From positions 21,700-85,699 of the IMG/VR virus record IMGVR_UViG_3300028030_000008: a DNA stretch of 64,000 nt; one strand, 5' to 3'. Below are positions 1 through 42,838 of the stretch, piece by piece. The notes beneath the pieces are model-generated. The model was not told the origin of the DNA. It was given only the letters and a program-made list of their open reading frames with translations, and made no database searches. Made by a program: the position numbers and the translations under genes. Source of the DNA: a virus. The number at the start of each line of letters is the position of its first letter. Position 1 is the first letter of the stretch.

Positions 1-226
1 CAACTCTCTCACGAAGCTCGTTCCAACGACCGTCAGGGTCTTCCCATGACAGTTTTTTGATAACATCGGTATCAACACGAGTACCAATTAACTCTTCGGA
101 CTTTCGAGAGAGTTTATCAAATGTTAATCCGGGGTGAGCTAAGTAGTATTCCTTTAGAATGTCAACATGCTCGTCTTGTACGGCTGTTTTCGCCGCTCTG
201 CGATGCACAACTCTCTGTTTCGTCAT
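1..226 (-). CDS. Hypothetical protein, 5' part only (cut by window edge)
   Basis: The first 75 codons of a minus-strand gene are visible; it begins MTKQRVVHRRAAKTAVQDEH and is open to the window edge. The N-terminus is basic, followed by a predicted helical segment that could be a helix-turn-helix. The ATG lies 7 bases after the -10 box of a divergent promoter, with no Shine-Dalgarno, so its mRNA is predicted to be leaderless. The late genes at the right end also run on the minus strand, so if the genome is circular or permuted this could be a packaging gene such as a small terminase, but no diagnostic motif is visible. I do not recognise the family. Confidence 0.6.
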   Translation of the reverse strand, partial: MTKQRVVHRRAAKTAVQDEHVDILKEYYLAHPGLTFDKLSRKSEELIGTRVDTDVIKKLSWEDPDGRWNELRERV

Positions 227-233
227 GGTATAG

Positions 234-262
234 AGTTTACACTAATTTTACCGAAAGTTCAA
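234..262 (-). promoter_or_regulatory. Sigma70-type promoter (TTGAAC-17-TAAACT), leftward
   Basis: The -35 TTGAAC is at 257-262 and the -10 TAAACT at 234-239 with a 17-base spacer, read on the minus strand. The start codon at 226 follows the -10 by 7 bases, so the transcript should start at or just before the ATG. Confidence 0.6.
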
Positions 263-297
263 ATCAAGGTTGCTAAAATGTTAATCAACCTTTGAAT

Positions 298-326
298 TTG
301 ACAAAACAGAAAGGGTGTGCTACAAT
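298..326 (+). promoter_or_regulatory. Consensus sigma70 promoter (TTGACA-17-TACAAT), rightward
   Basis: TTGACA is at 298-303 and TACAAT at 321-326 with exactly 17 bases between. The element TGTGC directly precedes the -10, as in several other promoters here. It drives the first plus-strand operon, and the ATG at 333 begins 6 bases after the -10. Confidence 0.85.
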
Positions 327-332
327 CACTTT

Positions 333-743
333 ATGGATGGATGGAACGTAAGCGACGACGTAAGAAGGCTAAACCCTGACATTTTTGGTGGCAAGCCGGT
401 GAAGCGAAATAGGAATAAGTTTGGCGCAACCAAGACAGTGGTTGACGGTATCAAGTTTGATAGCAAGGGCGAAGCAAATAGGTACTTGGAGCTCAAAGAA
501 CTTCAAGAGCTTGGCGCAATTTCAAATCTCGAACTGCAACCAAAGTTTACGCTCATTCCGGCTTTCGAGCATGGAGGGAAGAAGTACAGGGCGATGACGT
601 ACTCTGCTGATTTTCGATACACCTCTGGTACACTCACATTTGTTGAGGATTTTAAGGGTTTTGAAACAGAGGTATTTAAGATTAAGCGCAAACTTCTTTT
701 GTATCAAAATCCAAACATCAATTTCATTACCACCCGAAAATGA
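333..743 (+). CDS. DUF1064 family protein, PD-(D/E)XK nuclease-like
   Basis: The 136-aa protein matches the phage DUF1064 pattern: a basic N-terminus with the NKFGATKTVVDGIKFDSKGE motif, then LELQPKFTLIP, YSADFRY and a VEDFKG motif. The conserved E, D and DFK residues resemble a PD-(D/E)XK nuclease core, so a structure-specific or restriction-like DNase role is plausible but not proven. The start is placed at ATG 333, because an in-frame GTG at 315 lies inside the promoter -10 region and cannot be transcribed from it. No ribosome binding site is present, so translation is predicted to be leaderless. The stop overlaps the next ATG (ATGA). Confidence 0.85.
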   Translation: MDGWNVSDDVRRLNPDIFGGKPVKRNRNKFGATKTVVDGIKFDSKGEANRYLELKELQELGAISNLELQPKFTLIPAFEHGGKKYRAMTYSADFRYTSGTLTFVEDFKGFETEVFKIKRKLLLYQNPNINFITTRK

Positions 744-1273
744 AAGACATTAACCTAGATTTTGACGATAGTATTCAGGCGCGCGACGACAACATTTGGA
801 TACCAACCAAAAAGTTTAGGAAGCAGTACATTCGTGTAAAACCGAGATACCGAAACAAGATCGAGGTTGTTGAGGATTACGAGGGTAATCTCGTTGAGGA
901 AATTCCAGATGAAGAATACCGCTTGAGAATAGAGCGCCCACGAAGAACGCATTTCAAAGGGAGGGAAAGCGCGGGGACTAGAGGAGAGTGGGATTGGTTG
1001 ATAAAAATAGCGCAAGAGGTTATCAACGAATACGGAGATAAACCTGTAGAGTCAAAGAAAATAGTGGCTCTAATTTGCCCAAAGTACAACATGGCGCAGC
1101 AAACTCTTTCTCAGAGGCTAAGAAGATGTTGGCGCAGGGGGTGGATAAGGCGTTGGCAAATGCACAATAATCGAGGAGAGGCAATAGGGAGACACGGTAA
1201 AAAATTGCCCCACTTCTGGAAATTTGAAAGGATAGATGATGACAAATTTGGACACCCAAGAATTGACTATTAA
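740..1273 (+). CDS. Hypothetical phage protein with winged-helix-like C-terminal half
   Basis: This 177-aa basic protein is translationally coupled to the upstream gene by an ATGA overlap. The C-terminal half (about residues 80-170) has a helix, QQTLSQRLRRCWRRGW and then a basic HNNRGEAIGRHGKK stretch, suggesting a winged-helix nucleic-acid-binding fold. The N-terminal 60 residues are charged and lack a recognisable motif. The next gene is also winged-helix-like, so the pair may act together. The exact family is not recognised. Confidence 0.85.
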   Translation: MKDINLDFDDSIQARDDNIWIPTKKFRKQYIRVKPRYRNKIEVVEDYEGNLVEEIPDEEYRLRIERPRRTHFKGRESAGTRGEWDWLIKIAQEVINEYGDKPVESKKIVALICPKYNMAQQTLSQRLRRCWRRGWIRRWQMHNNRGEAIGRHGKKLPHFWKFERIDDDKFGHPRIDY

Positions 1274-1532
1274 CGAGAATGACAAACGGTGGGAGATTTT
1301 GTATAAAATCCTACTCGCCGAGTACAAAACACAAGAGCCGCAAGTTTCTCTGACAATTAGAGAAATGGGACATCGTATGGCGATGGTGCTTGGACAAGAT
1401 GCGTCAATTTCGAGTAGCGTGATTGCCCACTATCTCAAAAAGTTAAAGGATAATGGGTATATTGATTTTCCAAAAATGCGCCCCGGTGTGAAGTCGCGGG
1501 ACGCAAGTAAAATTATTTTGAAACAGGTCTAG
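1236..1532 (+). CDS. Small winged-helix protein
   Basis: The 98-aa protein has a typical winged-helix layout: a helix at about residues 20-33, TIREMGHRMAM, then SSSVIAHYLKKLKDNGYI as recognition helix and turn, then a basic wing (MRPGVKSRD). It probably binds DNA as a small regulator or replication accessory. The first ATG overlaps the upstream gene by 38 bases; a second ATG at 1239 is equally possible. Confidence 0.85.
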   Translation: MMTNLDTQELTINENDKRWEILYKILLAEYKTQEPQVSLTIREMGHRMAMVLGQDASISSSVIAHYLKKLKDNGYIDFPKMRPGVKSRDASKIILKQV

Positions 1533-1541
1533 GAGGGCCAA

Positions 1542-1805
1542 ATGAAACCGTTTTACAAAAGCAAGACCATGATATTCAATGCGGCGCTCGCAGCTTCGCC
1601 GTTCATCGTTGCAGCTTTAGTGTGGCTGCAATCTGTTTTCACCAATGAGGAATTTCTACCTGCGCTTGCATCTTTGTTGGCCGTACTTGGTGTAAATCTT
1701 GATATGGCGCTATCTGCGTCTGTTGTTACAGTTCTTGTTGCGGTGATTGGTATGATTTTGCGCTCAGTCACCGATACCGGCATTACCTTCAAGAAACTAT
1801 GGTAA
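1542..1805 (+). CDS. Small membrane protein, holin-like
   Basis: The 87-aa protein starts MKPFYKSKTMIFN and has two hydrophobic segments (about residues 12-30 and 36-73), ending in a short basic tail. The KSKT-FN start followed by hydrophobic helices and a VLRxVT-like end is common in small phage membrane proteins often annotated as putative holins. A good site (AGGAGG) lies 8 bases upstream. It is followed at once by another membrane protein and a secreted hydrolase-like protein, which supports a lysis role. That role is an inference from context. Confidence 0.85.
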   Translation: MKPFYKSKTMIFNAALAASPFIVAALVWLQSVFTNEEFLPALASLLAVLGVNLDMALSASVVTVLVAVIGMILRSVTDTGITFKKLW

Positions 1806-2080
1806 ACTACTGGCTAGAAGCAGTGACTATAGCGGTTCACTTGCTGGTACAAGTGTTCGTTGTAGTCGCTGCTTCACCTGCTTCGGTGCACGGGAGTCTC
1901 GTTGAAAAATGGGAAGCAGCTTTTATCTTACTCGTTATCTCTTTATTAAATTTCGCGTTGTACTCATCATTGCGGTCTTATTTTTCGGAATTATATATCC
2001 CGCAAGCGCGGGTTCACCGGATATTGAGCTTGCAAGAATCCTCGAAGGAGAAGCATCATTCGAGGACTGTGGATTCTTAG
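1799..2080 (+). CDS. Small membrane protein, possible second holin or spanin component
   Basis: The 93-aa protein has two membrane segments (about residues 5-25 and 40-60) and a hydrophilic, basic, Ser-rich tail. It overlaps the upstream gene by 7 bases and shares 172 bases with the following gene in another frame. Overlapping reading frames of small membrane proteins are typical of phage lysis cassettes. No sequence family is recognised. Confidence 0.65.
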   Translation: MVNYWLEAVTIAVHLLVQVFVVVAASPASVHGSLVEKWEAAFILLVISLLNFALYSSLRSYFSELYIPQARVHRILSLQESSKEKHHSRTVDS

Positions 2081-2331
2081 GACTTATTGCTGTAGCGCAT
2101 GTTTATAGCCGTAATAGTATAATGTACGGTTACGCAAAATCATCTCCGCAATCAAGGTTGGTGGCAGAAGTGTGGGAAAGTATACCCGACCCAACACACA
2201 ACTCAACATATATTTTTGGTGAAGCAGATTTACAAAAAAGTAAAGTGCGCTTGCTAGTATCAAAGGAAAAGCTCAAGCTAAAGTTGAGGGTACGCTGTAA
2301 TAGCGGAGACTTATTCGCGTATGGAAAATGA
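1909..2331 (+). CDS. Secreted protein with SleB-like cell-wall hydrolase motif
   Basis: The 140-aa protein has a convincing signal peptide (basic start, hydrophobic core, PASAG cleavage site near residue 35). Next comes ELARILEGEASFEDCGFLGL and AVAHVYSRN, which resembles the start of the SleB/CwlJ cell-wall hydrolase domain (ARxIxxEAxGE...GMVAVAxVxxNR). The C-terminal half is not conserved with that family as far as I can see, so activity is uncertain. It is out of frame with, and embedded in, the end of the upstream membrane gene. It is probably the muralytic partner of the holin-like proteins. Confidence 0.7.
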   Translation: MGSSFYLTRYLFIKFRVVLIIAVLFFGIIYPASAGSPDIELARILEGEASFEDCGFLGLIAVAHVYSRNSIMYGYAKSSPQSRLVAEVWESIPDPTHNSTYIFGEADLQKSKVRLLVSKEKLKLKLRVRCNSGDLFAYGK

Positions 2332-2340
2332 GGTTTAGAA

Positions 2341-2898
2341 ATGACAAATGACTTACAATCCGCAGCTATACACATCTACGGTAGTGACGCTCTAGCTATA
2401 GGCAGGAATTTGATTTACCAAGATTCTGGGCTAGACACTTCAATTGATTTCGTGGACGGTATCTTGCCGCAAGTTAATGTGCTACTCTTGCACCCAGACG
2501 CAAAGATGCCAGCGCGTGGGAGAAAAGGCGACATTGGGTATGATGTAAGAGCTGTAGAAAAAACTGTAATTCCGTTTGGTGGATTTATGTGGGTTTCTAC
2601 TGGAATTGCAATGTCGTTTCCAAAGTATTTGTGGTATGAAGTTAAGCCAAGGAGTGGATTTTCCTTAAACAGGGGAATTTTCGTTCATCCCGGGACAATC
2701 GAGCATACATACACCGGGGAACTCAAAATTGGTATTCTCAACCTTGGAGGTAATTTCGGCAATGAATTGGTCATCAACAAAAGCCAACGTATCGCTCAAA
2801 TCCTGTGGCATAAAAGGGTGGATGTAACGCACAATGAAGTTGACAAGCTCCAAGAAACAGAAAGAGGGGCGCAGGGGTTTGGGAGTAGCGGGCTGTGA
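2341..2898 (+). CDS. dut: dUTP diphosphatase (dUTPase)
   Basis: This enzyme hydrolyses dUTP to dUMP and pyrophosphate, keeping uracil out of phage DNA and supplying dUMP. The 185-aa protein shows the trimeric dUTPase motifs in order: GDIGYDVRA (motif 1), KPRSGFSLNRG (motif 2), PGTIEHTYTGELKIGILNLG (motif 3), KSQRIAQI (motif 4) and the C-terminal Gly-rich RGAQGFGSSGL (motif 5). An N-terminal extension of about 40 residues is unusual and has no known motif. The stop overlaps the GTG start of the next gene. Confidence 0.95.
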   Translation: MTNDLQSAAIHIYGSDALAIGRNLIYQDSGLDTSIDFVDGILPQVNVLLLHPDAKMPARGRKGDIGYDVRAVEKTVIPFGGFMWVSTGIAMSFPKYLWYEVKPRSGFSLNRGIFVHPGTIEHTYTGELKIGILNLGGNFGNELVINKSQRIAQILWHKRVDVTHNEVDKLQETERGAQGFGSSGL

Positions 2899-3152
2899 CA
2901 AGGGAAACCGCAGAATACTATAGCGAACTTGCAGAGTTGGGTTGTATTATTTGTCAAATGCCCGCCGAGATACATCACTTGACCGGCGCTGGGATGGCGC
3001 TTAAAAGCGAAAACGCAATACCGCTCTGCCCTCGACATCACAGAACGGGCGGATATGGAGTAGCTATTCACGCCGGAGAAAAGAAGTGGGAAGAAAACTT
3101 TGGAACGCAAGAGGAACTACTTGAGAGAGTAAAGAAGTTAATCGGTGACTAA
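2895..3152 (+). CDS. Ref-like HNH nuclease
   Basis: The 85-aa protein contains LGCIICQ, EIHHLTGAG and LCPRHHRTGGYGVAIHAGEKK followed by WEENFGTQEELL. This order matches the core of the phage P1 Ref (recombination-enhancing, RecA-dependent HNH nuclease) family, in a short form without a long N-terminal arm. The paired His and Cys residues bind metal and form the active site in that family. It probably nicks DNA at recombination intermediates. The start is a GTG overlapping the dUTPase stop (GTGA). Confidence 0.88.
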   Translation: MTRETAEYYSELAELGCIICQMPAEIHHLTGAGMALKSENAIPLCPRHHRTGGYGVAIHAGEKKWEENFGTQEELLERVKKLIGD

Positions 3153-3438
3153 TAAACAAACAGCAGCGTTATTGAAACTTCTGAGACTTAAACTGGAAGC
3201 CGAAATATACGAAGCAGACGCTACACTTGGGGATAATGTTGTTAGAGTGCAAAATGACAAGTACATCGGCAATAACAGATTCGGAGAATTTCTAAGTTCC
3301 CCAATAACGCACCCCAATAAATGGGAAAAAGAGGATGGATTGGCCGTTGCATTAACCGGATTACTAGCCTTTACCATTGAAATCGAGGAAATAGAAGAAA
3401 TGCTAACGAGTGGTACAGAAGATGAAGACTCCGCCTGA
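3145..3438 (+). CDS. Hypothetical acidic protein
   Basis: The 97-aa protein starts with GTG overlapping the upstream gene by 8 bases. It is mostly alpha-helical by composition, with an acidic C-terminus (EIEEIEEMLTSGTEDEDSA). No family is recognised. Tight coupling to the Ref-like nuclease suggests co-expression. Confidence 0.8.
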   Translation: MTNKQTAALLKLLRLKLEAEIYEADATLGDNVVRVQNDKYIGNNRFGEFLSSPITHPNKWEKEDGLAVALTGLLAFTIEIEEIEEMLTSGTEDEDSA

Positions 3439-4078
3439 AAAAGTTCTAAACGAAGTAAGCGAAAACGAGGAAATCACATACTGGACTCGTCGCTCTGAAT
3501 ATGAGATGGTCGAGGAGTTCGCTGAGGGATTTCTGTACATTTGGGTTTGGTCATTAGCAATGTTGGATATTTCCAACGCACTCGACATGCCATCAATTTT
3601 GTATGGCCTTCTGTTTAATCTCTTGTTTATCTGGACAATGGTTCGTGAATTTATCGAGTGGAAAGCAGAAGTACATGTTGTTACAGAGTACATTAGTGAC
3701 AAAGGTGGGTCTTACTACAAATTTTGGGGAGCTTTTAGGCAGAGAGACAAGGAAATCCCAATCTCAGGTTCATCGCCGGATATTTCGACAGATACGCTAC
3801 TCAGTGCAAGAATTTGGAGATTTATAACAGGCGAACATCTAAAAAAAATCACTTTGTCGTCTCAAGGGCGCACGTATATCAATGGTAGTAAAATGTCGCC
3901 ACAACTAAAAGCTGCAATCAAATCCGCCAGAGGAAGCCCAGCGGAAAAGAATGAAGCCGATTCTGATACAGTGCAGATTGCAAGAGAAGTCAGGAGGATG
4001 ATGAAGGACGGCACGCTTAGTAAGCACGAGGCAAGGCACTACGCAAGAAACTTAATCGAGAGAGCGGTAAATGGATAA
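3422..4078 (+). CDS. Membrane protein with PH-like (bPH) domain
   Basis: About 218 aa. Two hydrophobic helices (about residues 35-55 and 58-78) are followed by a beta-rich stretch starting EVHVVTEYISDKGG, as in bacterial PH-domain (bPH_2) membrane proteins. The C-terminal 80 residues are basic and helical (QIAREVRRMMKDGTLSKHEA), perhaps a short SHOCT-like oligomerisation segment. ATG 3422 is preferred; an in-frame GTG at 3410 is the alternative. Its role is unknown. Confidence 0.8.
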   Translation: MKTPPEKVLNEVSENEEITYWTRRSEYEMVEEFAEGFLYIWVWSLAMLDISNALDMPSILYGLLFNLLFIWTMVREFIEWKAEVHVVTEYISDKGGSYYKFWGAFRQRDKEIPISGSSPDISTDTLLSARIWRFITGEHLKKITLSSQGRTYINGSKMSPQLKAAIKSARGSPAEKNEADSDTVQIAREVRRMMKDGTLSKHEARHYARNLIERAVNG

Positions 4079-4627
<549 letters not shown>

Positions 4628-4646
4628 ATAGCGGGGCTAGGTAAGT

Positions 4647-5915: not shown

Positions 5916-5924
5916 GGAGGAGTA

Positions 5925-6506
5925 ATGAGGGTTTTAGTTGCATGTGAATTTTCAGGGATAGTAAGGAGTGAATTTGCCAAGCTCGGACACGATGCTTGGA
6001 GTTGTGATTTACTCGAAACAGAAATTCCGGGTAATCATATCGTTGGGGACGTTTTAGATGTACTTGATGACGGATGGGATTTAATGATAGCACATCCCCC
6101 GTGTACGTATTTGTCAAACAGCGGAGTTAGGTGGCTACACACGCAAGAGGGGCGTTGGCAAAAAATGAAAGATGGGGCTACATTTTCCAGAAAGCTACTA
6201 AACGCGAATGTTCCAATGGTGGCCGCTGAGAATCCAATTCCTCACAAATACGCTGTAAATATAATTGGGGAAAAATACACCCAGATCATTCAGCCTTGGC
6301 AATTTGGTCACGGAGAGCAAAAAGCTACTTGTTTATGGCTACGAAACTTGCCGCCGTTAGTACCAACTAACATTGTTACAGGTAGGAAACAAAGGATATG
6401 GAAATTGCCACCAACGAAAGATAGATGGAAACTGAGAAGCGTAACCTACAAGGGAATCGCGGAGGCAATGGCGATGCAATGGGGAGGGAGCAAAAGTGGA
6501 CATTAG
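5925..6506 (+). CDS. C5-cytosine methyltransferase-like protein (short)
   Basis: The 193-aa protein begins RVLVACEFSGIVRSEF, an SAM-binding type start. It carries AHPPCTYLSNSG, equivalent to the catalytic PPC motif IV, and AAENP, equivalent to ENV motif VI. It is much shorter than ordinary Dcm enzymes and lacks a visible target-recognition domain. Such short Dcm-like proteins are common in phages and their activity is uncertain. A strong site (GAGGAGG) precedes the ATG. Confidence 0.87.
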   Translation: MRVLVACEFSGIVRSEFAKLGHDAWSCDLLETEIPGNHIVGDVLDVLDDGWDLMIAHPPCTYLSNSGVRWLHTQEGRWQKMKDGATFSRKLLNANVPMVAAENPIPHKYAVNIIGEKYTQIIQPWQFGHGEQKATCLWLRNLPPLVPTNIVTGRKQRIWKLPPTKDRWKLRSVTYKGIAEAMAMQWGGSKSGH

Positions 6507-7638: not shown

Positions 7639-7643
7639 CAGGC

Positions 7644-8036: not shown

Positions 8037-8038
8037 CT

Positions 8039-8227: not shown

Positions 8228-8236
8228 AAAACCTCC

Positions 8237-8761: not shown

Positions 8762-8764
8762 AGT

Positions 8765-17091: not shown

Positions 17092-17475
17092 ATGAACGAA
17101 CCAAAAGTATCGATTCAAGTGAAAGTTCGGCAAAAGAATGACTACAGCGAGTGGGATGATATTCCCGTTCTCGCCTCTGCCCTCATCGAAGACAGCGACA
17201 AGAGCGGAGACGGGTACGCCAAATTCATTCTTGAAACAAGCGGCGGTGTAGAAGCCCGATGGAATAAGGTCGGCGACTCAAAAGGCCACCATGTCAGAAA
17301 GGAAGGGTATTATCCGTTCTGGCAAATTCAGATCGACAGCCAAACTATCGGCCCTCCCATGATGAAAAGTTTAGCCGAGGAATGGCTCGAAAGCCTGCAA
17401 CGGTGGATTAAGGCTGACAAGCTGCGAAAAAACACCAGAAGTACCATTAAGATTGTCCCGACGGAGGTGATATAA
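17092..17475 (+). CDS. Hypothetical protein
   Basis: The 127-aa protein (MNEPKVSIQVKVRQKNDYSE...) has a beta-rich N-terminal part and a C-terminal helix (SLAEEWLESLQRWIKADKLR). The site AAAAAAGGAGA is near-perfect. Its stop overlaps the next ATG. No family recognised. Confidence 0.85.
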   Translation: MNEPKVSIQVKVRQKNDYSEWDDIPVLASALIEDSDKSGDGYAKFILETSGGVEARWNKVGDSKGHHVRKEGYYPFWQIQIDSQTIGPPMMKSLAEEWLESLQRWIKADKLRKNTRSTIKIVPTEVI

Positions 17476-21151: not shown

Positions 21152-21856
21152 ATGAAACTTACTATTCAGCAAGACTTGTACGCAGAAGACCCGCTTACCG
21201 AATGGGACAACCCCTTTCGTTTTATCAGCAACCACAAAGACTACTATACAAGTAGGCGTAACGTTACAAACGCGCACGGCGACTCCGTGTACGATAAAGA
21301 CGGTGAACCGATCGGTATTGACGATTTAGACGCAATGGGTAAATTCTTTGAAGTTGAAAGATATGTTGTTGTCCCCGTAAGAGCGTATATGCACGGAGGA
21401 ATTTCGCTTTCTACCGGGTACGGTTATCCGTATAACGATGTGTGGGACTCTGGAACTTTCGGCTGGTTGTATGCTTCACCAGAAGATATTCGTAACAACT
21501 TCAACGCAAAACGCGCTTCTAAGAAAATGAGAGAGACGTTTACCCAAATGATGAAGTCGTTTGTCGAAACATGGGACGACTACTTCACCGGGAATGTCTT
21601 TTGGTTTTCCATCGAAGACGACAATGGGGAAATCAAAGACTCTTGTGGCGGTTTTTACGGCGACGTTGAAAAGTCCGGTATAGAACATCACGTTTCAGAA
21701 GAAGCATACGAAGCCTTGCTATGCAATGACCGTAAAGATATAGGAGGTAGCGAAGGATGGGGATTTTACATTGAGTATCAGTCCCCAGAGGAAAGAAACG
21801 AAGCAGATGCGCTACTCGAAGCAATAATCGGAACGACTTCCGCAATAGTTATCTAG
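21152..21856 (+). CDS. Hypothetical protein
   Basis: The 234-aa acidic protein (MKLTIQQDLYAEDPLTEWDN...) follows AAAAGGGAGA. It has ERYVVVPVRAYMHGGISLST and many aromatic residues. The overall layout, with a YxHGGxxLSTG-like core, is seen in uncharacterised phage proteins. Function unknown. Confidence 0.85.
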   Translation: MKLTIQQDLYAEDPLTEWDNPFRFISNHKDYYTSRRNVTNAHGDSVYDKDGEPIGIDDLDAMGKFFEVERYVVVPVRAYMHGGISLSTGYGYPYNDVWDSGTFGWLYASPEDIRNNFNAKRASKKMRETFTQMMKSFVETWDDYFTGNVFWFSIEDDNGEIKDSCGGFYGDVEKSGIEHHVSEEAYEALLCNDRKDIGGSEGWGFYIEYQSPEERNEADALLEAIIGTTSAIVI

Positions 21857-22590: not shown

Positions 22591-22619
22591 TTGTGCGTAA
22601 TAGTCCATCATGGTATACT
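22591..22619 (+). promoter_or_regulatory. Promoter (TTGTGC-17-TATACT), extended -10
   Basis: TTGTGC (22591-22596) and TATACT (22614-22619) are 17 bases apart, with TGG before the -10. The ATG at 22626 lies 6 bases after the -10, predicting a leaderless mRNA. Confidence 0.7.
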
Positions 22620-22625: not shown

Positions 22626-23171
22626 ATGAATACAGTGATTGGAAAGTGTAAAGAGTGCTTCAAAAACACAGCGCTGAACCAAGATGGACTTTGCAAAAAA
22701 TGCCAACTCGAAACGGTAGACTCTTTCGAGATGGCAGAAATAAGAGCGAAACTTCTGCGCTTCTATTACAGCGAGTTTGGCGCAAAAAGCGTTATTGCTA
22801 ATTGGCAAAAACTCGCCGACAATCTCTCCCGTTTAGTAAAGAGAGATAAAGCATGGACAGCGAGGTACATTAGGAGTATAGCAAACGGGGACAAAGGCTT
22901 TCGTCGTATTCCAGCGCAATTAAAACAAGCGATAGAAGGCTACTCTCCAAAGATTGTATTCACCGATGGGTTTGCTGTTGAAAATACGGTAAGTAAATAC
23001 CAACTTCCGGTTGGCTCAATCATCCTCGGTAAACCACGCAAGTGTAAATGGAGAGACTGCAACGTATGGTTCGTCCCGAAGTGGGACAGTCAGCTATACC
23101 ACACAAAAAAATGCAAAAAGCTCGCTCGAAACGAGCGCAGAAAAAAGCAAAGAGTACAAAAGAGATTCTAA
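22626..23171 (+). CDS. Double zinc-finger DNA-binding protein
   Basis: The 181-aa protein has an N-terminal CKECFKN...CKKCQ zinc finger, a central helical region that may hold a helix-turn-helix (QKLADNLSRLVKRDKAWTAR), and a C-terminal CKWRDCNVWFVP...YHTKKCKKL finger with a very basic tail. This resembles phage regulators that read DNA with small zinc fingers. It has its own promoter and predicted leaderless start, with no Shine-Dalgarno. Confidence 0.85.
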   Translation: MNTVIGKCKECFKNTALNQDGLCKKCQLETVDSFEMAEIRAKLLRFYYSEFGAKSVIANWQKLADNLSRLVKRDKAWTARYIRSIANGDKGFRRIPAQLKQAIEGYSPKIVFTDGFAVENTVSKYQLPVGSIILGKPRKCKWRDCNVWFVPKWDSQLYHTKKCKKLARNERRKKQRVQKRF

Positions 23172-24536: not shown

Positions 24537-24544
24537 GGCAAAAG

Positions 24545-24572
24545 TTGCAAAATAGCACACAATTCCTATAAT
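24545..24572 (+). promoter_or_regulatory. Promoter of the tRNA region (TTGCAA-16-TATAAT)
   Basis: TTGCAA (24545-24550) and TATAAT (24567-24572) are 16 bases apart, 9 bases downstream of the last DnaA box. Transcription would begin just before the tRNA at 24586. Confidence 0.75.
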
Positions 24573-24585
24573 ATCAAGTAATCAT

Positions 24586-24657
24586 TGCGGAATAGCTTAA
24601 CGGTAGAGCGCCAGAATCATAATCTGGATGTTGCAGGTTCAAATCCCGCTTCCGCAA
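24586..24657 (+). tRNA. tRNA with CAT anticodon (Met, or Ile2)
   Basis: It folds as a full cloverleaf: acceptor TGCGGAA/TTCCGCA, D-arm GCTT-aacggta-GAGC, anticodon arm CCAGA-ATCATAA-TCTGG, and T-arm GCAGG-TTCAAAT-CCCGC with one A-C mismatch. The anticodon is CAT (24618-24620) and CCA is not encoded. The T1-A72 pair and the anticodon stem without three G-C pairs argue against initiator tRNA. It could be elongator Met, or Ile if C34 is lysidinylated. Confidence 0.92.
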
Positions 24658-24658
24658 C

Positions 24659-25025: not shown

Positions 25026-25045
25026 TCAAAAAAGCAACTGAAAAT

Positions 25046-25074
25046 TTGCAACAACAAATGTAACATGCTATAAT
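25046..25074 (+). promoter_or_regulatory. Promoter (TTGCAA-17-TATAAT)
   Basis: TTGCAA (25046-25051) and TATAAT (25069-25074) are 17 bases apart, with TGC before the -10. Transcription should begin near 25081, directly upstream of the structured leader. Confidence 0.82.
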
Positions 25075-25080
25075 TTCTTT

Positions 25081-25238
25081 AAGCCGTTGGCCCCGGCTAA
25101 AGAGACAAAGCGAACAATAGACTTCTGTTTTTCTATAGGTGTTGGTTGTTTGTTGGTTTTAGCTGAAAAGCAAAAAGCCTTTGTCTCGCAACCAACAATG
25201 GGCCTAACCAACATCTATAGAAGCGCAGAAGTTTTTTT
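25081..25238 (+). ncRNA. Pseudoknotted small RNA or attenuator ending in a long terminator
   Basis: ACTTCTG (25121-25127) pairs with CAGAAGT (25226-25232). A 16-bp helix continues inside, 25132-25147 with 25206-25221, and a run of seven T follows (25232-25238), so this is a Rho-independent terminator of 23 pairs. GAGACAAAG (25102-25110) can pair with CTTTGTCTC (25179-25187) in the loop, and GTTGGTTG (25141-25148) can instead pair with CAACCAAC (25189-25196). The alternatives suggest an RNA switch controlling the gene at 25268, or a stable small RNA of about 160 nt. Confidence 0.65.
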
Positions 25239-25267
25239 ATTGCCAAAAGAAAGTCCGGGGAGGCAAA

Positions 25268-25474
25268 ATGCAAACAGTGCAGCTAAAATCAATCACAGTA
25301 ATTGCAAACAAGCAAACCGTAGAAATTCCTCGTCATGAATTAAAGGTTGTTGATGGTGGATTTGAGTATGCCGACTTATTTATACCAATCCCAGAACCAG
25401 TAATGACAACTAATAAATACCCCGGATTCGTAATGTCTCTCAAGGAAGCTCTACAATGCAAAAAGAGTTACTAA
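25268..25474 (+). CDS. Small hypothetical protein
   Basis: The 68-aa protein (MQTVQLKSITVIANKQTVEI...) follows GGGGAGG. It is beta-rich at the N-terminus and acidic in the middle. It lies downstream of the long terminator hairpin, so its expression may depend on antitermination. Confidence 0.75.
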   Translation: MQTVQLKSITVIANKQTVEIPRHELKVVDGGFEYADLFIPIPEPVMTTNKYPGFVMSLKEALQCKKSY

Positions 25475-25645: not shown

Positions 25646-25674
25646 TTGACAATCAAGTAATAAGGTGATAAAAT
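25646..25674 (+). promoter_or_regulatory. Consensus promoter (TTGACA-17-TAAAAT)
   Basis: TTGACA (25646-25651) and TAAAAT (25669-25674) are 17 bases apart. ATG 25675 abuts the -10 and a second in-frame ATG lies 6 bases later (25681). AAGGTG sits in the spacer and could serve only transcripts from further upstream. Confidence 0.85.
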
Positions 25675-25908
25675 ATGGGTATGAAGCCAAGTTCGCATAA
25701 TCCGACTTTTTCAAACGTCACGCCACAACAGGTACTTAAATTGCAAGAATTTGCACTAGAACTAACCGGAAAAAGAAGTGCGTCTGCGTTGCTCCGCTTA
25801 ATCGCAGATGACGGTTTTGTAACAAGTGCGCCCAATATCGGTATATCAATGGCGACACCGTTTGACGGTAAACAAAAAAGAGTGCTGGTCGTCGAGCGGC
25901 CAGAATAA
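25675..25908 (+). CDS. Ribbon-helix-helix-like regulator, copy 1
   Basis: The protein is 77 aa from ATG 25675, or 75 aa from ATG 25681. The core pattern, QxxKLQEFALELTGKRSASALLRLI, matches the next gene (KLELLSLQLLGRANMSALIRHI), so the two are paralogs. Helix spacing and small size suit an Arc/CopG-type DNA-binding dimer, though the N-terminal strand is not typical. Promoter, single gene and terminator make a self-contained unit, consistent with an autoregulator. Confidence 0.8.
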   Translation: MGMKPSSHNPTFSNVTPQQVLKLQEFALELTGKRSASALLRLIADDGFVTSAPNIGISMATPFDGKQKRVLVVERPE

Positions 25909-25915
25909 GGCACGG

Positions 25916-25938
25916 CAGTCCTAATAGGGCTGTTTTTT
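25916..25938 (+). terminator. Rho-independent terminator
   Basis: CAGTCC (25916-25921) pairs with GGGCTG (25927-25932), followed by six T. It ends the transcript of the first ribbon-helix-helix-like gene. Confidence 0.85.
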
Positions 25939-25955
25939 ATTTAACCACCCTAGAT

Positions 25956-25984
25956 TTGACAAATAGGAACATAAGGTATAGAAT
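25956..25984 (+). promoter_or_regulatory. Consensus promoter (TTGACA-17-TAGAAT)
   Basis: TTGACA (25956-25961) and TAGAAT (25979-25984) are 17 bases apart. ATG 25985 abuts the -10; the next in-frame ATG is at 25994. Confidence 0.85.
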
Positions 25985-26212
25985 ATGTCTCAAATGAAAA
26001 CAACCATTTCCGGGCTAACAGAAACAGAAAAAGCAAAACTTGAACTCCTGTCATTACAGCTACTTGGCAGGGCAAACATGTCAGCACTGATACGCCACAT
26101 AGCCAGTAATGGCGTCGTAAAAGATAAAGAAAGCATGAGCATGTCAGAATCGCTAAACGGGACTTTTGACGTTGGACTTAAAAAAGTGCTAATCGTAAAA
26201 ACACAAGCCTAG
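25985..26212 (+). CDS. Ribbon-helix-helix-like regulator, copy 2
   Basis: The protein is 75 aa from ATG 25985, or 72 aa from ATG 25994, which is the more likely start if transcription begins at the local promoter. It shares its helical core and the C-terminal KKVLIVK (RVLVVE in copy 1) with the previous gene. It is probably a DNA-binding regulator with a different target. Its stop codon overlaps a terminator. Confidence 0.8.
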   Translation: MSQMKTTISGLTETEKAKLELLSLQLLGRANMSALIRHIASNGVVKDKESMSMSESLNGTFDVGLKKVLIVKTQA

Positions 26213-26249
26213 CGCGGTGCGTCCGCCGACATACTGAGGCTTGTTTTTT
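26204..26249 (+). terminator. Rho-independent terminator
   Basis: CAAGCCT (26204-26210) pairs with AGGCTTG (26237-26243), enclosing a GCGG/CCGC hairpin, followed by six T. The stem begins in the last codons of the gene. Confidence 0.8.
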
Positions 26250-26286
26250 ATTCACAAAGCCCCTGTTATACCAACAATAAGCCCGG

Positions 26287-29301: not shown

Positions 29302-29330
29302 TTGCCAAAATATAACAGGTGTGCTATAAT
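29302..29330 (+). promoter_or_regulatory. Promoter (TTGCCA-17-TATAAT)
   Basis: TTGCCA (29302-29307) and TATAAT (29325-29330) are 17 bases apart, with TGTGC before the -10 as at 316-320. Confidence 0.82.
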
Positions 29331-29334
29331 TCTT

Positions 29335-29416
29335 ATGCAGGATAAATCAAACGTCATTGGGGAATGACCAGTCATACACGCGCTAATCTCCTCATCTGTC
29401 AGGAGCTTTGTTTTTT
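29335..29416 (+). ncRNA. Small RNA of about 80 nt with terminator
   Basis: Between a consensus promoter and a terminator lies a hairpin GTCATT-gggg-AATGAC (29353-29368). The terminator is CTCCT (29388-29392) with AGGAG (29401-29405), then CTTTG and six T. A 10-codon frame (MQDKSNVIGE) starts at 29335, 4 bases after the -10, so a leaderless micropeptide is an alternative. The remaining 100 bases to the next gene contain a CTACG/CGTAG hairpin and a repeated AGATTTTTAATTA. Confidence 0.65.
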
Positions 29417-29522: not shown

Positions 29523-29849
29523 ATGAACGATGATAGTGCAAAAATTCTTGGATGTTTCGGTAGTATTGTTGGCTTTATAGCATTGATGGTAGTCGGAAGT
29601 TTAGCGAGGGGGTGGGCGTTAGCTACAACTTGGGGATGGTTTATTGCGCCGTATTTCGGGCTACCGTCTCTCGGCGTAGTTCAAGCTATCGGCATTGCCC
29701 TGGTTGTATCTTTGCTAACATATCAAGGTACTGAAACAAAAGATGATGACAAAGACATACTAGAGGTACTGGCGTCACTTTTTGCAAGAGTGATATTTGT
29801 TCCTCTATTTTTTGTTGGTATTGGATGGATTGTGGTTCAATTTCTTTAA
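29523..29849 (+). CDS. Membrane protein
   Basis: The 108-aa protein has three or four hydrophobic segments (about residues 9-30, 35-52, 54-70 and 87-107). A short charged loop (QGTETKDDDKDI) lies near residue 71. AAAGGAG precedes the ATG. Function unknown. Confidence 0.82.
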   Translation: MNDDSAKILGCFGSIVGFIALMVVGSLARGWALATTWGWFIAPYFGLPSLGVVQAIGIALVVSLLTYQGTETKDDDKDILEVLASLFARVIFVPLFFVGIGWIVVQFL

Positions 29850-33838: not shown

Positions 33839-33850
33839 AACCCCAAAACC

Positions 33851-33859: not shown

Positions 33860-33875
33860 CACAAAAGGAGATTTC

Positions 33876-37796: not shown

Positions 37797-38280
37797 AGTT
37801 GTTAATTTACACATATCTTCTTATATCGGGACGGCAATTGGCGCAACTCATTTTTACGGTGAACTTCAAATGCGCGGCGAGGGTGATGTTGAGTTGTTTA
37901 ACGTTTTAACAACAAAACAAGCCATTCGCCTTAGAAAAGAAGGGTATAGCCACTACGAAGCAGGTGACAAGTACAGAGGTTTTGAATGTAAAGACGATGC
38001 GATAGCCGAGGGCAAGAGGGTATGGAAAGAGCATTTTCCAGACGCGCAATTTCTTGTTCTTGGGAAGGTTATTCATATTGAACCCAAAAAACTACTAGAT
38101 GCGCCCAATGACGATGTGATAGCCGAGGTAAATGCTATCGTCGATGAATACGACGAGCGTATGAAGAAATACGAAGGCCGGAAAAACCTCAGAAAACCAA
38201 TCAGCATGGAAGATGAAAGATTTTTCGACGATAGCTACAAGGAGTGGGTAAGGTTGCTAAATGAAGCTATTACAAACTAA
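37774..38280 (+). CDS. Hypothetical protein
   Basis: The 168-aa protein overlaps the SbcC gene by 23 bases and the next methylase by 20. It contains LTTKQAIRLRKEGYSHYEAG and an acidic/basic helical C-terminus. No family recognised. Confidence 0.83.
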   Translation: MENQLLAKVVNLHISSYIGTAIGATHFYGELQMRGEGDVELFNVLTTKQAIRLRKEGYSHYEAGDKYRGFECKDDAIAEGKRVWKEHFPDAQFLVLGKVIHIEPKKLLDAPNDDVIAEVNAIVDEYDERMKKYEGRKNLRKPISMEDERFFDDSYKEWVRLLNEAITN

Positions 38281-39430
38281 TCAGGTAGTAAACGGGGATT
38301 GCCTTAAAATAGTAAAGACGTTTCCTGAAAACAACATAGACAGTATTATCACCGATCCTCCGTACCACTTGAAATCAATTGTCGAAAGGTTTGGCAAGAA
38401 AAGCTCTGTGCCAGCGCAGTATGGCAAGGACGGTAGTTTTGCTAGACTGTCCGGTGGATTTATGGGTATGAAGTGGGACGGTGGTGATATTGCTTTCCGC
38501 CCTGAAACGTGGGCTGAGTTTCTTCGAGTGGCGAAGCCCGGTGCGACATTGATGAGCTTTGGTGGGACAAGAACGTTTCATCGTATTGCCTGCGCTATTG
38601 AGGATGCTGGTTGGATTATCTACGATACGATTATGTGGGTTTACCTGACTGGTATGCCAAAGTCCAGAGACATCGGTAAAGACATAGACCGCACACTAGG
38701 TTTCGAGAGGGAGGTAATTGAAACCAGAGCGCAGGGTGGGGCAAAATTCAGGGCGACGCAGGAGTTGATTGACAACGGCGGCTTCAACGATCCGAGCAGA
38801 ACTGAATATCAAGTAACTGCGCCTGCTTCCGATGAAGCAAAAGTGTGGGACGGATATGGCACTGGATTATCTCCTGCATTTGAACCCATCATTGTTGCGA
38901 GAAAGCCGGTTGACGAGACTTACGCCAAAAACGCCTTAGAGTGGGGTGTTGCTGGACTAAACATAGAGGCGGGAAGATTAAATGGCAATTGGGCCAAGAA
39001 CGTGATTTTGTCTGAGGAGTTTGCTAACGCCATTGGAGATTTGTCCAGTTTCTTCTATTGCCCAAAACCTTCAATTAAAGAAAAAGAGGCTGGATTAAAA
39101 GATTTTGCTCCGAAGAAAGTTGACCCATCTAGGCTTGAGGGAAATCCGGGCGGCGACAACCCAAGAAATAGAGGAGTGAATAAACGCAAAAATACTCACC
39201 CATCGGTAAAGCCGATAAAACTATTAGAATATTTAGTTAAGCTCACGAAAACACCGACGGGTGGTATTGTTCTTGACCCGTTTGCCGGTTCAGGAACGAC
39301 AGGTGTTGCTTGTAAAATGCAAGGCCGTCCGTATATTTTAATCGACCAAAGTGAAGAATATTGCAAAATTGCAGAAGCAAGGATAGCTGCATATCATACA
39401 GCAGTGCAGGCATCTTTGTTTGACATCTAA
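38261..39430 (+). CDS. DNA methyltransferase, probably N6-adenine (beta class)
   Basis: The 389-aa enzyme has motif IV TDPPYHL (about residue 36) and motif I LDPFAGSGTTGVA (about residue 345), with a long target-recognition region between. DPPY favours N6-adenine methylation. It is larger than the methylase at 32.4 kb and should read a different site. No restriction partner is visible. Confidence 0.92.
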   Translation: MKLLQTNQVVNGDCLKIVKTFPENNIDSIITDPPYHLKSIVERFGKKSSVPAQYGKDGSFARLSGGFMGMKWDGGDIAFRPETWAEFLRVAKPGATLMSFGGTRTFHRIACAIEDAGWIIYDTIMWVYLTGMPKSRDIGKDIDRTLGFEREVIETRAQGGAKFRATQELIDNGGFNDPSRTEYQVTAPASDEAKVWDGYGTGLSPAFEPIIVARKPVDETYAKNALEWGVAGLNIEAGRLNGNWAKNVILSEEFANAIGDLSSFFYCPKPSIKEKEAGLKDFAPKKVDPSRLEGNPGGDNPRNRGVNKRKNTHPSVKPIKLLEYLVKLTKTPTGGIVLDPFAGSGTTGVACKMQGRPYILIDQSEEYCKIAEARIAAYHTAVQASLFDI

Positions 39431-39441
39431 AGGAGATTACA

Positions 39442-40005
39442 ATGAGAACATGTCCGTTATGTAGTCATCAATTTAGCCGCGCAAAAACGGTAGAGCCACG
39501 AAGTAAGTTCCATTATTGTCCAAGTTGCAACGGGGTGATTTACTACGATAAGAAGAAAACGCTAGGAAGAAAGCAAGGAGAGCGTATTGAGGAAGAAAAA
39601 GCGGCTGCTAATAAAATAGTCGAAACGTTTGAAAAAAGAGCGTCAAGTGTTCGTCAAGCTCCCTTTTACTTCGAGGGCGCTGCGAGAGTAAAAGAACTTG
39701 CAATGGCAAGAAATTTCATTGCCAAGTGTCGTACTTATATAAGCCGCTCCTCCTTGAACGGAAAGATTACAGCCTCAGACTTTGCATTAAGGATGGTGGA
39801 ATTTGTGTTCTCTGACAGTAGATGGGGGTGGATGGCTCAAGTGGCTAGTGGGCTATCCTCGATTATGGGGGTAAAGTTTGCTTCTATTGCGTCTGATTTG
39901 ACACGCTTGGTCAGTATAGAGATTACCAGAAGTGAAGCTGTTAGCAGGCGAATGAATTACCGCCCACCCGTAAATTTCAGTTCTGTGACCTATGCGGTTA
40001 TTTAA
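39442..40005 (+). CDS. Zinc-ribbon protein upstream of DnaB-like ATPase
   Basis: The 187-aa protein starts with CPLCSHQF...CPSCNG, a zinc ribbon, followed by a basic helical domain. It overlaps the DnaB-like gene by 14 bases. Position suggests a helicase partner such as a loader or primase accessory, but no loader motif is visible. Confidence 0.83.
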   Translation: MRTCPLCSHQFSRAKTVEPRSKFHYCPSCNGVIYYDKKKTLGRKQGERIEEEKAAANKIVETFEKRASSVRQAPFYFEGAARVKELAMARNFIAKCRTYISRSSLNGKITASDFALRMVEFVFSDSRWGWMAQVASGLSSIMGVKFASIASDLTRLVSIEITRSEAVSRRMNYRPPVNFSSVTYAVI

Positions 40006-41074
40006 TCCAACAATCAGTGGCCTTGTCGCCGCAACAGAGGAAGATTGGGGCGATACTAAACAAAATGTCGAAGATGCGATACGGTATCGCATTAAGCCAA
40101 TTGACGACGCCTTGTTTGGTATCAACATGAGAGACGGCGAAATGATAGGCGTCCACGCCGTCAAAAAGATGAGAAAGTCAACTCTTGTCCTCAATCTTGT
40201 TCTAGGTTTTGCTCATCAGCTAAAGGGAAGGTCGGAGGGGTATTGGGTGTGCGCCGACACACTGGAATCCGGTATGCCACCACAGGCGTATCGAGACAGC
40301 CTTATCGCTATGGCTGCTACAAGGTTGCTTGTGTCTAGGTTTTACGGGAATGACAGGGATAAATGGCCTAGCGTTGAAACGATAAAGGCTCACCCAGAGC
40401 TTGGCCCGATGATGAACATATCTCGTGAGTTTTTCTTGTACGGGAGACGAACACCGGAACAACAGGAGGCAATCGAACTTGCGAAAAGAGCGGTTGCAAG
40501 TATGCCAATCTCAATATTTGGCGCGGCGTCTTTTCAGGGAAAAACACGGAACGTTGATGCTACGGTAAAACGGTGGTCTGAGTTATATCACGGGAAGTAT
40601 ATTCATCGTCACAAGATTGGTGGCGAGATTAAAGAAGTTGATATGACTGGCTTGCATCATAGAATATTTAGCACTGACCACATTTCTCAACTATCAGGCT
40701 TTGGTGCATCGTCTTTCGAGATGCAAGAGACGGTTGTCAGTAAGTACGCTGAATTTTGCACTGAGCATCCTGGCTCTGTTGTTATTGCTGTTGGACAGAT
40801 TGGCTCTAGCTCTGCTAAAGACGAGAAGCGCGGCTTCGGAGATGCAAACACAAAGGGTGGTACTGCCCTTGCTGCCGAAGTGACGGTTTTATTCCGTACT
40901 GAATACGATAAGGACAAGTCACCGTTCAAAATGAAGATTTGGGTGCAAGATACGCGCAAAAGGCCGCCGCCGCCGATTATTCAGGATATAGATGACCAGT
41001 CTGGCGCGTTTCTTGGGACAAGAGTTGCAAGGAATGGAGAGGAAGGTGGTGTAAGGATAGATAGAAGATATTAA
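39992..41074 (+). CDS. DnaB-like RecA-fold ATPase with unusual P-loop
   Basis: The 360-aa protein resembles the C-terminal ATPase domain of DnaB helicases: GEMIGVHAVKKMRKSTLVLN at the P-loop, FSTDHISQL at Walker B, then VGQIGSS and KGGTALAAEV as in DnaB motif 3/4 regions. In the P-loop Gly before Lys is replaced by Arg (MRKST instead of MGKT/S). It lacks the N-terminal DnaB domain. It may be a replicative helicase or a structural relative with altered ATP use. Confidence 0.82.
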   Translation: MRLFNPTISGLVAATEEDWGDTKQNVEDAIRYRIKPIDDALFGINMRDGEMIGVHAVKKMRKSTLVLNLVLGFAHQLKGRSEGYWVCADTLESGMPPQAYRDSLIAMAATRLLVSRFYGNDRDKWPSVETIKAHPELGPMMNISREFFLYGRRTPEQQEAIELAKRAVASMPISIFGAASFQGKTRNVDATVKRWSELYHGKYIHRHKIGGEIKEVDMTGLHHRIFSTDHISQLSGFGASSFEMQETVVSKYAEFCTEHPGSVVIAVGQIGSSSAKDEKRGFGDANTKGGTALAAEVTVLFRTEYDKDKSPFKMKIWVQDTRKRPPPPIIQDIDDQSGAFLGTRVARNGEEGGVRIDRRY

Positions 41075-41102
41075 CCTTTAGCAATAATTTCCTGTATTAG
41101 TT

Positions 41103-41131
41103 TTGACAATAAATGAAAGGAGGTGTACAAT
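41103..41131 (+). promoter_or_regulatory. Consensus promoter (TTGACA-17-TACAAT)
   Basis: TTGACA (41103-41108) and TACAAT (41126-41131) are 17 bases apart. An ideal AAAGGAGG lies in the spacer, so it can serve only transcripts from upstream. From this promoter a GTG at 41138, 6 bases after the -10, would be the leaderless start. Confidence 0.82.
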
Positions 41132-41368
41132 ATGGGTGTGAGACAGACTAGATTACCTAAAGGTGTGAAAGCAAGACCAATTACGGCGAATTTACCGGAG
41201 GATTTGTATAATCGCCTGCTTGAGCTTGCGCGTAAAAATAGACGCTCCATGAGCGCCGAGGCTACTTTTGCAATCGAGGAGTACCTTAGCGAATACGAAT
41301 GGGCGACTAACAAGCCTTGGATAACTAAAAATTCTTTTGACAAAACCCCCGCCATAGAAGATAAATAG
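41132..41368 (+). CDS. Ribbon-helix-helix regulator (Arc type)
   Basis: The protein is 78 aa from ATG 41132, or 76 from GTG 41138. Residues 15-55 (ARPITANLPEDLYNRLLELA, then SMSAEATFAIEEYL) match the Arc/MetJ ribbon-helix-helix fold: strand, helix, turn, helix. It binds DNA as a dimer and probably regulates its own promoter. Both a Shine-Dalgarno and a leaderless start are possible. Confidence 0.88.
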   Translation: MGVRQTRLPKGVKARPITANLPEDLYNRLLELARKNRRSMSAEATFAIEEYLSEYEWATNKPWITKNSFDKTPAIEDK

Positions 41369-41588
41369 CCCTCCGCCCCAACCATCGCGGGGGCGATGAG
41401 TGGGCGCGGATAAACGCGATTGCTTGCAACGCGCATCCTCTCGATGATTTTGACCGTTTCTGCTGCTGTGATTACGCCCTGGTTTTGGCCTCCGGGGAAA
41501 CGAGGCAGGGGAGAGTCGTAGCCGTAGGAATACGGCGCGTGTACACAGAAACCGAGCATGTTAAGCGACTGGCTGGTCAACTACATAT
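41369..41588. other. Intergenic region beyond the TnpB right end
   Basis: It contains a hairpin motif (41377-41403; ATCGC/GCGAT stem, G-rich loop, then GATGAGTGG) nearly identical to the one at 26287-26313. The minus-strand part adjoining tnpB is where the TnpB guide RNA (omega RNA) scaffold should lie. I cannot fix the element's right boundary. Confidence 0.45.
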
Positions 41589-41601
41589 CGACTAAAAGTC
41601 G
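41589..41601 (-). other. Right-end hairpin of the TnpB element
   Basis: CGACT-AAA-AGTCG forms a 5-bp hairpin overlapping the tnpB stop codon, as expected for IS200/IS605-type right ends, where the guide RNA begins in the gene's 3' end. Confidence 0.5.
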
Positions 41602-42803
41602 GTAACTTGCCCGTCCGGTTGAAAACCGGCTAAAGAATTAGCCGAACCAGCGTGCTTAAGGGGCGGTTGACACGCCCCATCACCGACCAGGTCTTGCCTG
41701 GCGATGATACCGCGCAATCTAATGTTGCGGGCGGCATTTAGGTCAGAATTAGCAGAGTAACCGCAAGCTCCACACTTAAAATTATGACGCTTACGATTAG
41801 ACTTGGCAACAAAACCGCATACAGAACAACCCTGAGACGTGTGCTTTGGATCAATCTTGATGACCTCAAAGCCTTCGCTTCTGGCTTTGTAGCTAATAAA
41901 TTCATCAAGTTGATAGAAAGCCCATTGATTAAGGTCAGTACGGAACGCCTTACGCAGTTTGCGTCCCTTCCTGATACCCTTCAAATCTTCAAGGGCAATC
42001 ATTGGGTCGCCAGTCTCTTTAGCAAACTCAATAATGCGCTTACTGATAACGTGATTTGTATTCTTGGTAAAACGCGCTTGCTTTCCGCTTTGCCGTTTCA
42101 GAACGCGCCTGATGGAGCGCGTGTTCTTCTGTGCCTTCTTCCTTTGGAGGCTAGAGCGCGTTTTTTGATAGCGACCTCTAACGTGTTTCGTTTGACCGCC
42201 GCCAAAAAACAAACTACGTTTACCATCGGTCACAACAGCAAGATTGTTAATCCCCCTGTCAATACCGATAACCGCATCATTTGGCTTGCTAATTTCCGCT
42301 ACTTCCTTTTTGAACGTTACGGAAAGAAATACGCCGCGCCTGGAAACGTGAAGCCTTGCATCTCCAAGCTGCCAATCAGCAAGATATTCTTGCAACTTGG
42401 GTTCACCCTGAAATGTGACCCCTTTAATTCTGCCTGCGGTAGTCCAGATACTAAGGCCGGTTTTCTTGAAACCGAAGTCCCGTTCACGCGCCCCGCCTTG
42501 AAGCACAACCGCCGCATTTTTGAAATGTATTGGCTTCTTTGGCATCTTTTTGGCGGTACGCATTGCCTTGTACTTGGATGTAACGAACCTGAACAGGCTG
42601 CCAGTTACTTGCGCGGACAATCCGTAATCGGCCTTAACCTGATGGTAAATCAGCTTATGCAGCTTTACAGGATTAAGGATATTACCATTATCAAAAGCTA
42701 CCTTACTGGCAAAGTTACAAGCATCATTCCATGCCCTGATAGTGTCAATGGCGGTTTGCCTGTCAAGATTTATTTTAATCTTTGTAGCGCGTATAATATC
42801 CAT
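41592..42803 (-). CDS. tnpB: TnpB RNA-guided nuclease (IS200/IS605 family)
   Basis: The 403-aa protein is a full-length TnpB. RuvC motifs are intact: GIDRGINNL (D), IALEDLKGI (E) and YSANSDLNAARNI (D). The CSVCGF...CGACGY zinc finger lies between II and III. TnpB cuts DNA matching the guide in an RNA made from the element's right end. No tnpA transposase is present here. The start at 42803 lies 6 bases after a consensus -10, so translation is predicted to be leaderless; an upstream TTG lies within the promoter. Confidence 0.94.
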   Translation of the reverse strand: MDIIRATKIKINLDRQTAIDTIRAWNDACNFASKVAFDNGNILNPVKLHKLIYHQVKADYGLSAQVTGSLFRFVTSKYKAMRTAKKMPKKPIHFKNAAVVLQGGARERDFGFKKTGLSIWTTAGRIKGVTFQGEPKLQEYLADWQLGDARLHVSRRGVFLSVTFKKEVAEISKPNDAVIGIDRGINNLAVVTDGKRSLFFGGGQTKHVRGRYQKTRSSLQRKKAQKNTRSIRRVLKRQSGKQARFTKNTNHVISKRIIEFAKETGDPMIALEDLKGIRKGRKLRKAFRTDLNQWAFYQLDEFISYKARSEGFEVIKIDPKHTSQGCSVCGFVAKSNRKRHNFKCGACGYSANSDLNAARNIRLRGIIARQDLVGDGACQPPLKHAGSANSLAGFQPDGQVTDF

Positions 42804-42809
42804 ATAGTA

Positions 42810-42838
42810 ATTATAGCACAAGCTATAGGGATATGCAA
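42810..42838 (-). promoter_or_regulatory. Promoter of tnpB (TTGCAT-17-TATAAT)
   Basis: On the minus strand TTGCAT (42833-42838) and TATAAT (42810-42815) are 17 bases apart, preceded by TTGTGC. From the -10 to the start codon the sequence is nearly identical to the promoter at 298-326. Confidence 0.85.

Follow-up and report, generated by a model that had tools for sequence, protein, structure and literature searches.

The stretch of DNA analysed here (the window; 64,000 bases) extends from base 21700 to base 85699 of IMGVR_UViG_3300028030_000008, a phage record of 85,699 bases in IMG/VR. The remaining 21.7 kb of the record were fetched and joined to it for whole-record counts. The phage has a GC content of 44%, and a large terminase and a major head protein were recognised in it with PHROGs. 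At seven gene starts and one micro-open reading frame (micro-ORF) in the window, and at one further gene start outside it, a sigma-70-type promoter sequence with a 17-base spacer is followed within 4-9 bases by a start codon (Table 1). A first-pass annotation of the sequence had drawn attention to this arrangement, and every position that it listed was found.

The start codon lies exactly 6 bases beyond the -10 box at -17681, 333, 22626, 25681, 41138 and 42803, and 7 bases beyond it at 226; sites 226 and 42803 are on the minus strand. Promoters were scored as matches out of the 12 box positions. Scores of 11/12 were obtained with a 17-base spacer ahead of 333, 25681, 25994, 41138 and the micro-ORF at 29335, and at 42803 the extended -10 box is perfect (TGCTATAAT) and is accompanied by a -35 box that can be read as TTGCAT (spacer 17) or TTTGCA (spacer 18). 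The small terminase gene (terS) heads the leftward packaging genes, and the product of the 41132 gene matches Pfam RHH_5 with 28.9 bits (cut-off 26). A profile search gave no Pfam match for the proteins encoded at 25675 and 25985, and structure prediction for the former gave two helices with low confidence (mean pLDDT 48). The tnpB gene (41592-42803, minus strand) has no obvious tnpA partner, and its closest named relatives are just 30-37% identical.

Table 1. Promoter sequences, genes and hairpins at the proposed leaderless starts (window coordinates; SD, Shine-Dalgarno sequence).
Feature	Position	Strand	Remarks
Promoter TTGAAC-N17-TAAACT	234..262	-	8/12; ATG 226 of small terminase gene 7 bases on; boxes and spacing kept in L003
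Small terminase gene (terS)	1..226 in window; start 226, runs on to -277	-	Upstream of large terminase gene; aligns with ORF at terS position of L003
Promoter TTGACA-N17-TACAAT, TGC ahead of -10	298..326	+	11/12; ATG 333 at 6 bases
DUF1064 gene, proposed leaderless start 333	333..743	+	Pfam PF06356, E=1e-30; without SD-backed alternative start
Weak promoter TTGTGC-N17-TATACT, TGG ahead of -10	22591..22619	+	8/12; ATG 22626 at 6 bases
181-aa gene, function not assigned, proposed leaderless start	22626..23171	+	In-frame stop 6 bases upstream
Promoter TTGACA-N17-TAAAAT, AAGGTG in spacer	25646..25674	+	11/12
Small protein gene	25675..25908	+	ATG 25675 abuts -10 box; in-frame ATG 25681 at 6 bases; paralogue of 25985 gene
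Hairpin and T-run closing first cassette	25914..25939	+	z -2.8
Promoter TTGACA-N17-TAGAAT, AAGG in spacer	25956..25984	+	11/12
Small protein gene	25985..26212	+	ATG 25985 abuts -10 box; in-frame ATG 25994 at 9 bases
Hairpin and T-run closing second cassette	26203..26250	+	z -3.0
Promoter TTGCCA-N17-TATAAT, TGC ahead of -10	29302..29330	+	11/12; ATG 29335 at 4 bases
10-codon micro-ORF MQDKSNVIGE, translation doubtful	29335..29367	+	Distance of 4 short for transcription start on its A
Promoter TTGACA-N17-TACAAT, full AAAGGAGGTG SD in spacer	41103..41131	+	11/12
RHH protein gene	41132..41368	+	ATG 41132 abuts -10 box; in-frame GTG 41138 at 6 bases; Pfam RHH_5, E=9e-7
Promoter TTGCAT-N17-TATAAT (or TTTGCA-N18), TGC ahead of -10	42810..42838	-	ATG 42803 at 6 bases
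tnpB gene, proposed leaderless start 42803	41592..42803	-	Pfam PF07282, PF01385
Additional site outside window, TTGCTA-N17-TATAAT-ACTACT-ATG, TGC ahead of -10	Start at record base 4018 (window coordinate -17681)		175-aa gene

Seven promoters in the 85.7-kb record score 11/12 or better with a 17-base spacer, against 0-2 in 30 first-order Markov sequences. At four of the seven, an ORF of 70 or more codons starts 6-9 bases past the -10 box, and at a fifth the micro-ORF starts at 4. Long ORF starts at 5-9 bases in four of seven best promoters correspond to a binomial P of 1.6e-5. A distance count over the whole record (promoters of at least 9/12, ORFs of at least 60 codons, distances up to 40 bases) gave six ORF starts at exactly 6 bases and five at 0, with 0-2 at each of the other distances; the starts at 0 take in three composite genes, considered below, that have a further in-frame start at 6 or 9. 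Markov sequences yielded no ORF start at exactly 6 bases in 29 runs and a single one in the remaining run, and the 6-base excess over other distances in the phage has a P of about 3e-5. When the same count was applied to 50-kb pieces of one Synechococcus, one Prochlorococcus and one E. coli phage, whose numbers of promoter-like sites were similar, no 6-base peak was seen. A Thermus phage had one 6-base site, and a Mycobacterium phage had too few promoters to judge.

These counts bear on the view that promoter-like hexamers stand beside the start codons by chance, with the real promoters elsewhere and translation achieved by other SD-independent means. Such a coincidence is consistent with the total number of promoter-like sites in the phage, which does not exceed that of shuffles, with the weakness of two of the sites, and with the resemblance of some ribosome-binding regions to a -10 box, as in GGAGGTGATATAATG at 17475. 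However, both the top-scoring sites and the starts at exactly 6 bases far outnumber those in the resampled genomes, the cyanophage and E. coli phage pieces lack the peak, and the architecture is retained at the terS gene of a relative (see below). We regard coincidence as very improbable.

The surroundings of the start codons were then considered for other ways of starting translation. An in-frame stop codon lies 6-51 bases upstream of every gene start except that of tnpB, where the distance is 192 bases. At -17681, 226 and 22626 the stops are 6-24 bases upstream (18 at 226) and no ATG, GTG or TTG intervenes. The alternative upstream start for 333 is a GTG within the promoter. At 25681, 25994 and 41138 the ATG abutting the -10 box is usable as an alternative, and for 41138 there is a GTG 15 bases upstream as well. 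No SD-backed in-frame start was found within the next 40 codons of any of the eight genes. Because of the upstream stops and the lack of SD-backed alternative starts, transcripts from these promoters, if they are used, would carry no leader with an SD. The starts at -17681, 226, 333, 22626 and 42803 have no SD serving them, and the sequence around 333, 22626 and tnpB agrees with the first-pass annotation, which had reported none at these three genes.

Among named phages the large terminase has distant relatives only, mostly T4-like, and a protein search found none for the capsid protein. Scans with the capsid protein, a 2068-aa protein and the 25675 protein also failed to find relatives. With regard to the host, scans of genome contigs with tnpB and the terminase gave no close match, protein searches against phages and plasmids yielded only mixed, distant matches, and no WhiB-like motif was seen. 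The nearest phage found was L003, with a large terminase about 70% identical. Its terS gene keeps TTGAAA-N17-TAAACT-N6-ATG, with the same boxes and spacing and a changed spacer sequence; the start region reads TTGAAAgttcatgcggtttatgtTAAACTctgaatATG in L003 and TTGAACtttcggtaaaattagtgTAAACTctataccATG in the present phage. The layout is kept at one of the two comparable promoters in this one relative and absent at the other, a divergent promoter. L003 also has, at 311-526, a small ORF with a membrane-like stretch between its divergent promoter and a DUF1064-like gene, and this ORF is absent from the present phage.

The geometry was also sought in other phages by scanning IMG/VR for TTGACA-N17-TATAAT with an ATG required within 30 bases, which returned at least 169 distinct promoters. 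Among the matches listed, the distance from -10 box to the start of an ORF of at least 40 codons peaks at 6 bases (at least 14 cases) and 7 bases (at least 10) and again at 23-30 bases (3-8 per position), with about one case per position in between. The 6-7 base peak amounts to 24 of these matches where neighbouring distances predict 2.5 (P = 7e-16), that is, to 24 of the 169 consensus promoters listed, which had been preselected for an ATG no more than 30 bases away. The peak reappeared, with 14 starts (2.8 expected), when 11/12 promoters were taken from the sampled contigs without selection via an ATG, and it was weaker for TGTGCTATAAT alone (8 against 2.3). An SD was present at 40 of 59 longer-leader starts among the matches listed. 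None was present at the 29 sampled leaderless sites, which is not independent evidence, since that stretch is by design largely taken up by the -10 box. Among the sampled phages, leaderless genes encode a DNA polymerase (with the match beginning at residue 3), a clamp loader, primases, exonucleases and terminases; several of these leaderless starts agree with homologues. The spacing is kept in four homologous gene pairs on different contigs (one pair with 59% protein identity and a different spacer sequence), although in three of the four both members had been fetched because they matched the promoter pattern. A clustering of leaderless promoters in certain contigs was tested and is not supported; the two kinds of promoter, leaderless and SD-led, occur together in contigs about as often as chance predicts. 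The leaderless geometry is therefore not peculiar to the present phage and looks common in other uncultivated phages.

Taken together, the position of the start codons, the upstream in-frame stops, the lack of SD-backed alternatives, the one conserved case and the two-peak distances in unrelated phage contigs make a leaderless mRNA the best-supported reading, and one with a known mechanism (PMC3160421, PMC12340547, PMC4965119). Leaderless translation, which the first-pass annotation had proposed, is thus well supported at the level of sequence. We consider it probable that these are ordinary sigma-70-type promoters making leaderless or nearly leaderless mRNAs, and that the layout belongs to the first genes of several kinds of transcription units and not to one timed class. 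Promoter activity, the 5' end of the RNA and the mode of ribosome binding are what we infer here. The promoters would presumably be read by the host RNA polymerase, with transcription predicted to begin at the start codon or no more than about 3 bases from it. Ribosomes would then start on the 5'-terminal AUG (GUG at 41138) without an SD, probably via the 70S route known for leaderless mRNAs.

Several observations weigh against this interpretation. The promoters of 226 and 22626 are weak, with 8/12 each, so the earlier description of the listed promoters as strong fits the five at 11/12 and the perfect extended -10 box of 42803 but not these two. The distances of 9 bases at 25994 and 4 bases at 29335 are off the optimum, outside the 6-7 base range of TA-led genes. 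In L003, the divergent promoter (TTGACA-N17-TATAGT) is followed by a 22-base leader with GGGGA and then by the small ORF. Finally, the 25675, 25985 and 41132 genes offer an SD and an ATG usable by RNA from upstream.

It had further been proposed that the sites form a designed early-gene class whose translation is leaderless. Phage early genes typically have strong host-type promoters, which fits this proposal, as does the part of the gene set that encodes small regulator-like proteins. Yet terS, which heads the packaging genes, is a member, and so are tnpB, the DUF1064 gene and small genes of RHH or RHH-like type. In other phages this arrangement is found at genes for DNA polymerase, primase, exonuclease and terminase, and the chance mixture of leaderless and SD-led promoters within contigs is likewise at odds with a special class. 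An early-gene class is accordingly not supported, and we think it highly unlikely.

The three composite genes deserve separate discussion. Upstream of 25675, 25985 and 41132, the promoter spacer contains SD-like AAGGTG, AAGG and AAAGGAGGTG, respectively, 7-8 bases ahead of the ATG that abuts the -10 box; the full AAAGGAGGTG sits 8 bases upstream of ATG 41132. The leaderless start at 25681, 25994 and 41138 is therefore not the sole option. The SD and abutting ATG would be missing from RNA made at the local promoter and could be present on RNA arriving from upstream. This raises the possibility of a dual mode, in which a ribosome-binding site is built into the promoter, read-through RNA with the SD starts at the first ATG (25675, 25985 or 41132), and local RNA without it is leaderless from the second start (25681, 25994 or 41138). 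The placement of the SD-like stretches suggests such an arrangement, the stretch from the end of the upstream gene at 41074 to the promoter at 41103 shows no hairpin, and some E. coli mRNAs act as both leaderless and SD-led (PMC4965119). On the other hand, a terminator-like hairpin lies directly ahead of the 25985 promoter, and relatives of these genes were not found in the scan with the 25675 protein. In IMG/VR, where a promoter has an abutting ATG and a long ORF, an in-frame start follows at 6 bases in 5 of 25 cases, compared with 3 of 76 with a closed frame (P = 0.02). These promoters mostly have no SD, so that the second codon is favoured as the true leaderless start and the abutting ATG may be incidental. 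We regard the dual mode as doubtful, though worth keeping in mind. The 25675 and 25985 genes are paralogues with 34% identity, each with its own hairpin terminator, and 25646-26250 (plus strand) thus comprises two tandem cassettes of promoter, small paralogous gene and terminator-like hairpin.

The preferred reading, leaderless mRNAs from ordinary promoters, has precedents in known systems. TA-led (leaderless) genes occur in many bacteria, mostly Actinobacteria and Deinococcus-Thermus (Zheng et al. 2011, PMC3160421). As in the present phage, the first T of TANNNT lies about 12 bases before the start, and SD-led genes occur in the same genome; TA-led genes lack an SD, as do the starts at -17681, 226, 333, 22626 and 42803 here. 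In contrast, TA-led genes are known from cellular genomes, whereas here they would be in a phage of 44% GC, with a clear TATAAT-like box and TTGACA at the best sites. In Deinococcus the -10 motif lies 6-7 bases ahead of the ORF (PMC12340547), the same distance as here, but nearly a third of genes in Deinococcus-Thermus are concerned, as opposed to about eight in this phage, several of them with an extended -10 box (TGC). Lambda cI and transposon tetR, as cited in PMC4965119, are expressed from leaderless mRNA. Those two are repressor genes of mobile elements, comparable to the RHH-type and tnpB genes of the present set; no homology is claimed, and the present set is larger and not confined to repressors. 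E. coli also has mRNAs with a 5'-terminal AUG plus an SD (PMC4965119). Two ways of initiation per gene region are likewise suspected at 25675, 25985 and 41132; in E. coli both starts are on one mRNA, while here the SD would be only on RNA begun upstream.

The novelty of these findings is modest and consists of several probably leaderless genes in one phage and a sign of a common geometry in uncultivated phages; no paper reporting that this geometry is common in such phages was found in the open-access literature. More speculatively, leaderless expression might be a common second mode in uncultivated tailed phages, with some regulator genes carrying an SD in their own promoter and switching start codon and efficiency with the source of the RNA, but we consider this unlikely. 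In practical terms, gene finders that expect an SD or take the longest ORF will mis-start or miss such genes, and the geometry allows RNA 5' ends to be predicted exactly in phages that cannot be cultured. The short peak is missing from the pieces of Synechococcus, Prochlorococcus and E. coli phages, so the spacing from -10 box to ATG could also point to hosts in which leaderless mRNA is translated well; this link to the host is a suggestion and not a result.

Other elements were noted in the window. At 25045-25290 (plus strand), a promoter TTGCAA-N17-TATAAT with TGC ahead of the -10 box precedes some 200 bases that contain a long, imperfect hairpin (-71 kcal/mol, z -5.2). This region has a T-run, no SD-led ORF and no Rfam match, and is probably a structured non-coding RNA. 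At 29302-29415 (plus strand), the micro-ORF at 29335 and the weak hairpin with a T-run behind it (29388-29415) may belong to a short transcript of about 75 bases ahead of the SD-led gene at 29523. A tRNA-Met gene and a promoter of its own, TTGCAA-N16-TATAAT with its last base at 24572, lie at 24540-24658 (plus strand), and just upstream the minus strand has a divergent promoter-like site with TGTGC ahead of TATTTT.

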